Shown here: in pieces, positions 44,717 through 46,450 of the stretch
Layout: each line of letters starts with the position of its first letter
How positions within the stretch are numbered: the first letter of the stretch is position 1
From: Bradyrhizobium sp. 21
Lineage (GTDB): Bacteria; Pseudomonadota; Alphaproteobacteria; Rhizobiales; Xanthobacteraceae
Direction of reading: 5' to 3'
DNA: 64,000 nucleotides
Assembly (NCBI RefSeq): GCF_023073335.1
Contig: NZ_JADPJG010000012.1
Location: 62,001-126,000, forward strand
Notes under the pieces: model-generated
Databases searched by the model: none
What the model saw: only the letters and a program-made list of their open reading frames with translations
What the model was told of the DNA's origin: nothing
Program-made: the position numbers and the translations under genes

Positions 44717-44992
44717 TCAAGCCGCCTTGGAGACTTCCATCAGCAGACGTTCTGCCTTGGCATCCTCGATGCGGTTCACCATCCGGCTGCTCTCGTGATT
44801 GTCGCGGACGGTCTTGGTCAGGGTGATGCAGGTCTGCATCAGCATGACGATGCCCATGGTGAGATAGCCCTTCATCCAGAGGTCGATCGGCAGGAAGAAG
44901 ATGCCGATGGCGACGAGGAAGGCGGAGGCTGCGAAGGACACGTAAGTGAAGGTCACCCAGGCGCCGCTGTGGGGCTGGCCGTTCTGGTTCAT
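44717..44992 (-). CDS. YiaAB two-helix membrane protein
   Basis: A 91-residue inner-membrane protein with a YiaA/YiaB-type helix pair (AWVTFTYVSFAASAFLVAIGIFF and YLTMGIVMLMQTCITLTKTVRD, about residues 11-60) and a charged cytoplasmic tail. AGGAGA precedes the ATG. It follows the PspA-like gene by 52 bp and is probably co-transcribed with it. The family has no established biochemical role; here it may be the membrane partner of the PspA-like protein. Confidence 0.85.
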   Translation of the reverse strand: MNQNGQPHSGAWVTFTYVSFAASAFLVAIGIFFLPIDLWMKGYLTMGIVMLMQTCITLTKTVRDNHESSRMVNRIEDAKAERLLMEVSKAA

Positions 44993-45044: not shown

Positions 45045-45740
45045 TCAGGCAGTCGGCATGCGCTTGGACTTCAGCCGCGCCAGCACGTCGTCCGCGGTCG
45101 TCTTGAGCCGGGGGCCAAAGCCCTGCTCGGCAAGCTTCTCGGCGACCGCGAGCGGACCGGTGGCCGCATCGAGCTCGACCAGCGCGTCGTCGGCGGCCTG
45201 GGCTTCCATTTGCCGCTCGCGAAGCCGCCTCAAGGTGCTCTCCGCCTCCGGCAGCGTGGATTCGTAGGGGCGTGCCGCCTCGATGCCGCTGCGGCGAAGC
45301 GAGCGCACCGCTTCCGAGGCGCGGGCGACACGGCGACCGCGGTCGAGGTCGGTGATGCGGGCCTGCGCGCTCGCGACGTGCCGCTTCAGCCGGGCGATCT
45401 CGGTTGCGAACAAGGCGCGTGCCGTCATTGCCGCATCGCGATCGGCCTCCAGGTCTGCGATGGCTTCGGCGGCATCCTTGGCGAGATCCTCGCGGCCGCC
45501 GTCGAGCGCCGCAACCGCGCGGGTCTCGATATCCGCGATGCGGGCGACGGTCGCCTCGAGCTTGCGGCCTTCCTGCTGGTCCTGGGCGATCGCCAGCGCC
45601 AGCGTCCGCTTGCCGCGCTCGACGGCGGCAGCCGCATCGCGCATCTGCTGGTCGAGGATCAGAAGGGCCGTCCGGTCCTCCAGTTCCTCGCCGGCGGCGG
45701 CCACGCTGCCGCGGAAAAGTGTCACTACGGTCTTGAACAT
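45045..45740 (-). CDS. PspA/IM30 family envelope-stress protein
   Basis: A 231-residue, almost entirely helical coiled-coil protein that begins MFKTVVTLFRGSVAAAGEELED, the usual opening of PspA/IM30-like proteins, followed by long Ala/Arg/Glu-rich heptads. These proteins bind stressed inner membrane and form ESCRT-III-like assemblies. No pspF, pspB or pspC gene is near; a TetR regulator is divergent and a YiaAB gene follows. The usual PspF-type regulation is thus replaced by TetR. Confidence 0.88.
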   Translation of the reverse strand: MFKTVVTLFRGSVAAAGEELEDRTALLILDQQMRDAAAAVERGKRTLALAIAQDQQEGRKLEATVARIADIETRAVAALDGGREDLAKDAAEAIADLEADRDAAMTARALFATEIARLKRHVASAQARITDLDRGRRVARASEAVRSLRRSGIEAARPYESTLPEAESTLRRLRERQMEAQAADDALVELDAATGPLAVAEKLAEQGFGPRLKTTADDVLARLKSKRMPTA

Positions 45741-45756
45741 CTGCTACTCCCTGTTA

Positions 45757-45827
45757 TGAGCGTTGCTCACACACGTTTAGTAGCAGCGAACTTGAACATC
45801 GTTCAAGAAATATTTGAGCGCCGCTCA
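45757..45827. promoter_or_regulatory. Three TetR-type operator palindromes
   Basis: Three perfect or near-perfect 13-bp dyads occur between the divergent pspA-like and TetR genes: TGAGCGTTGCTCA (45757-45769), TGAACATCGTTCA (45793-45805, extended to a 15-bp TTGAACATCGTTCAA) and TGAGCGCCGCTCA (45815-45827). They share the form TGA(G/A)C-N3-G(C/T)TCA. Placement in the only shared promoter region strongly suggests binding by the TetR protein. Confidence 0.75.
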
Positions 45828-45841
45828 GGAATTTAGTTAGT

Positions 45842-46450
45842 ATGGCTAAGGCCCTGGAACGACGGGCGAAACTTCGGTCTGATCTGATTCAGGCGGCCGA
45901 GCGGATGATCGCCGAGCGCGGGTTGGCGGGTCTGAAAACCCGCGATCTCGCCCGCGAGATCGGCTGCGCCAATGGCGCGGTCTATAATCTCGTGACTGAT
46001 GTGGACGAGTTGATCCTGCGCGTTGGCTCCCGCACCTTGCTTCGCCTGGACGAGGCGCTTAGCGCGGCGGAACAGGCGGGCGAGCGCTCGCCGCAGGAAA
46101 CGCTGGTCCGCATCGCCCTCACCTATTGCGATTTCGCCGCCGAAAATCTCGAGCTCTGGCGCGCGTTGTTCGAGCACCGCATGGAGGTCGACAAGGCCCT
46201 CCCCGACTGGTCCGTCAACGACCAGATGCAGCTGTTCCGCCACATCTACCAGCCGCTGACCGCGCTGTTTCCAAAGCGCAGTCCGGAAGAGCTCGGCATC
46301 ACCGCGCGCAGCCTGTTCTCGGCGGTGCATGGCATGGTGGCGCTGGGACTGGAGCAGAAGCTGGTCGCCGTTCCGCTGCCGGCGCTGCGGAAGGAAATCG
46401 CAGCGCTCGTGCGCGCGATGATCGACGGGCTGGTCGCGCGGGCGGCGTAG
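45842..46450 (+). CDS. TetR/AcrR family transcriptional regulator
   Basis: A 202-residue TetR-type repressor. The HTH is near residues 28-47 (LKTRDLAREIGCANGAVYNL) and is followed by an all-helical ligand-binding domain. Its start lies 14 bp after the third operator palindrome, so autorepression is likely. Divergent from the PspA/YiaAB genes, it probably controls them. The inducer is unknown; a fatty acid or membrane-active compound would fit the target but is inference. Confidence 0.93.
   Translation: MAKALERRAKLRSDLIQAAERMIAERGLAGLKTRDLAREIGCANGAVYNLVTDVDELILRVGSRTLLRLDEALSAAEQAGERSPQETLVRIALTYCDFAAENLELWRALFEHRMEVDKALPDWSVNDQMQLFRHIYQPLTALFPKRSPEELGITARSLFSAVHGMVALGLEQKLVAVPLPALRKEIAALVRAMIDGLVARAA

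Follow-up and report, generated by a model that had tools for sequence, protein, structure and literature searches.

A TetR-family repressor with three matching operators is predicted to control pspA-yiaAB in Bradyrhizobium as one arm of a membrane-repair regulon

We analyzed a 64,000-nucleotide stretch of the genome of Bradyrhizobium sp. 21 (contig NZ_JADPJG010000012.1, positions 62,001 to 126,000), referred to below as the window. It holds a pspA gene on the minus strand and a tetR gene on the plus strand, which diverge from a 101-bp gap at 45741-45841. An earlier sequence-only reading had drawn attention to the interval 45741-46450, which comprises this gap and tetR; pspA and yiaAB fall outside it. 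The genes and control elements of the locus, in window coordinates, are as follows.

44717-44992, minus strand: yiaAB, second gene behind pspA, encoding a 91-aa two-helix membrane protein (PF05360)
45045-45740, minus strand: pspA, encoding a 231-aa protein of the PspA/IM30 family (PF04012)
45747-45753, minus strand: CAGGGAG, probable Shine-Dalgarno sequence of pspA, invariant in an alignment of 81 gaps
45757-45769, no strand assigned: operator O1, TGAGCGTTGCTCA, at the inferred pspA transcription start
45777-45782, minus strand: TACTAA, inferred pspA -10 after a conserved TGC (extended -10), from conservation in the 81-gap alignment
45793-45805, no strand assigned: operator O2, TGAACATCGTTCA, of the GAAC type, as at the TetR2/LplT-Aas locus
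45801-45806, minus strand: TTGAAC, pspA -35 inferred from the sequence, overlapping O2, 18 nt from the -10
45815-45827, no strand assigned: operator O3, TGAGCGCCGCTCA, directly ahead of the tetR start codon
45842-46450, plus strand: tetR, encoding the 202-aa TetR1 (TetR_N, E 5e-7; TetR_C_33, E 9e-10)

Profile searches placed all three proteins in their families. PspA matched PF04012 over residues 2-227 (79 bits against a cut-off of 33.9, E 5.3e-22) and is the sole match to that family in its genome, and it diverges from E. coli PspA, reaching only 14.9 of 243 bits with TIGR02977. YiaAB scored 68.3 bits with PF05360 (cut-off 26.6, E 6.6e-19) and 25.3 of 150 bits with the NCBIfam model of E. coli YiaA, which it does not reach. 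TetR1 scored 29.8 bits with PF00440 (cut-off 24) and has the all-helical body of the family, as seen in its structural model and Foldseek matches. In the PspF-PspABC system of E. coli, a PspA/IM30 family effector is likewise under dedicated stress control; the window differs in its TetR-type neighbor and its YiaAB partner. A genome-wide search with the PspC profile (PF04024) found no match in this genome while finding PspC in the E. coli control. With a single PspA and no recognizable PspC, a PspC partner is unlikely here. The pairing of PspA with TetR and YiaAB in place of PspF or PspB/C, which the sequence-only reading had pointed out, recurs across the group, at the 80 loci and 66 operator trios described below.

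The gap carries three exact copies of TGARCNNNGYTCA (TGARC-N3-GYTCA), at 45757-45769, 45793-45805, and 45815-45827. Their starts are 36 and 22 bp apart, so the three 13-bp palindromes are exactly as first described. No further exact site occurs anywhere in the window. Allowing one mismatch yielded 4 matches in the whole window versus 7.7 expected; the loose motif is thus not enriched. What stands out is that three exact copies cluster, and exact clusters were used thereafter. The 7.03-Mb genome contains 9 exact sites (8 with the reversed-pattern control): three at this locus, two on contig C15 next to the gene of a TetR paralogue, and four single sites (on C2, C17, C22, and C37), which we set aside as background given the count in the reversed control. 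At background density, the chance of three sites falling in the gap is about 1e-13 to 1e-14, and none of 200,000 mono-nucleotide shuffles of the gap contained more than one.

A consensus scan of the gap returned no sigma-70 site at the scan threshold, and the promoter elements listed above come from the alignment of 81 gaps. Besides the palindromes, CAGGGAG before pspA is invariant in this alignment and TGCTACAAA, between O2 and O1 and read on the pspA strand, is conserved. We infer that the former is the Shine-Dalgarno sequence of pspA and that the latter spans its extended -10, which reads TACAAA in most relatives versus TACTAA in the window. With the extended -10 so placed, TTGAAC 18 nt upstream would be the -35, and O2 would therefore cover the -35 and O1 the transcription start.

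The arrangement is strongly conserved among close relatives. From 337 TetR relatives confirmed in a scan of named genomes, we kept the best 80, at 72-91% identity; all came from records named Bradyrhizobium or Bradyrhizobiaceae, bar one named Frankia sp. RB7 (L153), which has a typical Bradyrhizobium locus and whose name looks wrong. Every one of the best 80 has PspA, and upstream of tetR there are always exactly three exact operators, spaced 34-36 and 21-23 bp apart. In 79 of them yiaAB lies on the same side (78 close by, one displaced by about 1.3 kb), and in the 80th the contig ends first. The co-occurrence of TetR, PspA, and YiaAB, for which the sequence-only reading had suggested a search in other rhizobia, is seen at these loci. 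In a wider sample of the genus, at least one exact site pair is present in 89 of 117 genomes, versus 1 of 117 for the reversed control; the other 28 have not even an exact pair.

Across the order, the whole-trio pattern was found at 65 places in 61 of 397 genomes and 23 of 141 genera, with no hit for the reversed control; the remaining 336 genomes lack an exact trio. In a sample of the class, 4 of 385 genomes had the pattern, including two not already counted. We examined 66 trios: every place in the order except the one in the window (64 of 65), and the two added by the class sample. In 65 of these, the 6.5 kb on the O1 side contain at least one of PspA, YiaAB, and Aas, though not always as the first gene. 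The O1 side holds PspA and YiaAB without Aas in 26 cases, Aas only in 20, PspA only in 8, all three in 8, PspA with Aas in 2, and YiaAB with Aas in 1, and contig ends may hide further members from this tally. Thioclava, of the Rhodobacterales, also has tetR, the trio, pspA, and yiaAB. The single exception among the 66 trios (L087, 6416-8400) has a KAS III-like gene, named by eye, on the O1 side and a DUF3419 (BtaA-like) gene opposite, with no TetR: lipid genes with the same sites.

TetR adjoins 58 of the 66 trios. Automatic calling had given 11 trios without TetR, and three of these calls proved to be artefacts (two involved frames across the gap and one a TetR co-directional with PspA), which leaves 8 without an adjacent TetR. 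A single strong TetR homologue is present elsewhere in every one of these 8 genomes, and five also have a weak one (E about 1e-18), in a search whose query alignment included rows from three of the 8 (G139, G170, and G367). The strong homologue stands with PspA-YiaAB in four genomes (G103, G139, G170, and G263) and with Aas in two (G092 and G367); in the other two (G343 and G264), the stretch examined around it showed no partner gene. One TetR thus seems to serve two operons in trans in these genomes.

A second operator pair in the Bradyrhizobium sp. 21 genome, at positions 127650 and 127680 of contig C15, lies upstream of a gene for TetR2, a TetR1 paralogue with 39% identity, and divergent from an lplT-aas fusion gene. 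The fusion is one open frame of 1168 residues, in which MFS, acyltransferase, and AMP-binding domains all score over their cut-offs. By its domain content, LplT-Aas would carry out lysophospholipid transport and re-acylation. Both sites at this aas locus are of the GAAC type and none is GAGC. In E. coli, LplT and Aas are likewise known, and PA3267, the Aas of Pseudomonas aeruginosa, is reported to be homologous to both; this sister locus has all three domains in one protein. LplT-Aas is tied here to PspA/YiaAB by shared operators, whereas aas of P. aeruginosa is described as belonging to the GacA/GacS regulon. The P. aeruginosa protein is reported to aid resistance to lipase effectors (PMC12663445).

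A match between protein and operator links the two repressors to their sites. In the tet repressor, the side chains of Arg28 and Gln38 are reported to hydrogen-bond bases +2 and +3 (PMC7102968), and R34 and N44 of TetR1 align with these residues by eye. The comparison took in 72 distinct TetR loci that have sites close by; because the site pattern itself had retrieved many of them, only base +3 counts as evidence. R34 is invariant over the 72 loci, base +2 is always G, and base +3 is C or T. Where residue 44 is N (26 loci), the outer operators are of the GAGC type, with a single AG half-site at two of the loci, and O2 is GAAC in 8 of the 26. With L, V, I, or P at position 44, 44 of 46 loci have GAAC operators only; the other two, both TetR2 loci, combine a GAGC with a GAAC site, and their genomes encode TetR1 as well. 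This is the trace expected of a change in specificity, but N44 seems to have arisen once, so the match between N44 and GAGC counts as one evolutionary event.

We also considered O2 as a site for TetR2. A GAAC-type O2 goes with the presence of TetR2 (29/29 versus 19/44 genomes with TetR2, Fisher 9e-8), but the association involves just 3 changes on a tree of 75 loci, too few independent pairs, and reflects mainly shared descent. O2 as a TetR2 site, and with it cross-control by TetR2, is therefore kept as a working hypothesis.

Published expression data from Rhizobium tropici bear on the signal. Plasmid pRtrCIAT899c of strain CIAT 899 carries tetR, three exact operators, pspA, yiaAB, and aas in a row and has one PspA place. 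Its gene order and three exact operators are the same as in the window, with the difference that aas is in the same row there and split off under TetR2 in the window's genome. In the reported RNA-seq data, PspA (RS28825) had a log2FC of 4.87 at pH 4.5, about 29-fold up, and of 4.42 after 45 min of acid shock, when 11 genes were induced (PMC5936775). The next gene, RS28820, annotated as "hypothetical," reached 4.46; the cut-off was lenient (p under 0.15) (PMC5936775). TetR RS28830 was named among the regulators in the acid response, and the authors guessed that it controls efflux (PMC5936775). Judging by consecutive locus tags, RS28820 would be yiaAB and RS28830 the tetR of the trio locus, which was located in an unannotated sequence record. 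The acid effect on pspA may be indirect.

TetR1 gave a confident AlphaFold2 model (mean pLDDT 94.7), and its best PDB match, by far, is 3cjd, a TetR protein of Jannaschia (profile E 3e-63; 41% identity in Foldseek). DesT (3lsj) and a "Fatty acid metabolism regulator protein" (3whb) are among the profile matches, and FasR is among the weaker Foldseek matches, on about the same level as drug and nucleotide sensors. These TetR-family lipid regulators share the fold of TetR1, but their matches are far weaker than that of 3cjd. The literature searched does not name 3cjd, which may hold a fatty-acid-like ligand.

Taken from comparative sequence evidence, TetR1 is most likely an autoregulated repressor of pspA-yiaAB that acts through O1-O3, within a membrane-repair regulon that also includes LplT-Aas. 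TetR1 dimers would bind O1 at the pspA start, O2 at the pspA -35, and O3 before tetR, shutting off both divergent units. A membrane-damage signal, which we guess is most likely a lipid fitting the TetR pocket, would release TetR1, and PspA and YiaAB would be made. In Bradyrhizobium sp. 21, the same control through TetR2 and its two matching operators would govern LplT-Aas, which is expected to import lysophospholipids and re-acylate them, so that PspA, YiaAB, and LplT-Aas would together form the regulon. The proposal of TetR control through the three palindromes gains strong in silico support from the recurrence of the trio and its spacing across genera and from the helix/operator match, and the proposed role as an envelope-stress switch fits the reported pH 4.5 induction of the orthologous R. 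tropici pspA. The description of the switch as self-contained is not supported, given the matching operators at LplT-Aas beside TetR2 and the 8 of 66 examined loci without an adjacent TetR. Because LplT-Aas lies under a paralogue with two matching sites, we read the module in the window as one arm of a split regulon, in which membrane shaping appears to be coupled to lipid repair.

A serious though less favored alternative is a strictly local switch, in which TetR1 controls itself and pspA-yiaAB, the LplT-Aas sites are TetR2's alone, and the circuits are independent. The division of N44 TetR1 with GAGC and V44 TetR2 with GAAC suits such independence, as do the two GAAC sites of the aas locus in this genome and the failure of the O2/TetR2 association to survive correction for descent. 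Yet O2 in the window is itself of the GAAC type. GAGC pairs stand at aas in both genomes of the genus without TetR2 that were looked at (G839 and G812), and at the aas locus of two genomes with TetR2 (G001 and G010) a GAGC site is paired with a GAAC site; in other genera, a single TetR appears to serve both loci.

The remaining rivals concern what is sensed and what binds. We consider it improbable that TetR1 detects a xenobiotic (a solvent, phenolic, or detergent) as efflux regulators do, with PspA/YiaAB as a detoxification response. The many drug sensors of the TetR family, some of them among the structural matches of TetR1, and the efflux control guessed for the R. tropici protein (PMC5936775) speak for it, but the recurrent O1-side genes are PspA, YiaAB, and LplT-Aas (65/66, in a tally of these three), with single cases of KAS III-like, lipase-like, or phospholipid-synthesis genes. 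That another regulator binds the palindromes, TetR being an incidental neighbor, is very unlikely: TetR adjoins most trios, the other 8 genomes have a homologue elsewhere, and operator base +3 varies in step with the helix residue that would contact it.

Beyond the repressor-regulon reading itself, we offer a broader and more tentative proposal. A lipid-sensing TetR family with a three-operator code may couple an ESCRT-III-like membrane remodeler, PspA with YiaAB, to lysophospholipid re-acylation across Alphaproteobacteria, with PspA answering a damaged-lipid cue and not membrane tension via PspF/B/C; in Bradyrhizobium, duplication of the circuit may have produced two repressors that cross-talk and are distinguished by a single recognition residue. 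To our knowledge, little is known of PspA's signal and needed partners outside PspF/B/C systems, and YiaA is seldom named with YiaB in the literature searched. A conserved operator that links PspA/YiaAB with lysophospholipid repair points to a function for YiaAB and predicts a lipid cue. Rhizobia suit a simple test, as the published R. tropici data place pspA among the genes that acid induces most strongly (PMC5936775). Term searches in the main text of a 2024 survey of PSP systems (PMC11237479) found none of YiaA, TetR, and acyltransferase, and our literature searches, which covered some sources in part, returned no prior description of a regulon of TetR, trio, PspA-YiaAB, and Aas.

Other exact operator pairs occur in the genus. 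Among the matches listed, 16 further pair loci were fetched: 10 of them lie by a ceramidase-like (CREST) gene and another 4 by Aas, which leaves 2 with neither gene. At the 10 CREST loci (L110-L118 and L123), the operators lie 28-31 bp apart at the 5' end of this membrane-protein gene, and no TetR was seen near any of them. The gene is a possible third regulon member; its Ceramidase match is below the Pfam cut-off, and a search of the Bradyrhizobium sp. 21 genome, run without a positive control, returned no match to it. The two remaining loci, L119 (3153-3188) and L120 (3119-3153), have exact pairs 22-23 bp apart, and PspA, Aas, and the CREST gene are all missing from their surroundings. Between the TetR2 operators and LplT-Aas, a conserved unannotated small frame of about 88 residues (L001, 2363-2629; similar in L035) had no match in a Pfam search.

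Several loci combine these genes in other ways. At L075, TetR and the trio stand beside genes for a methyltransferase, a CDP-alcohol phosphatidyltransferase, an acyltransferase, a cytidylyltransferase, and LplT-Aas; phospholipid-synthesis genes here stand in a row where PspA would be. In Rhizobium sp. 32-5/1 (L253), TetR lies between two operator groups; LplT-Aas, with Aas split over two overlapping frames, is to one side of it and PspA-YiaAB to the other. At L040 (640-1497), PspA and YiaAB share one open frame, which may be a fusion or a frame error; if genuine, it would be a physical link between both proteins.
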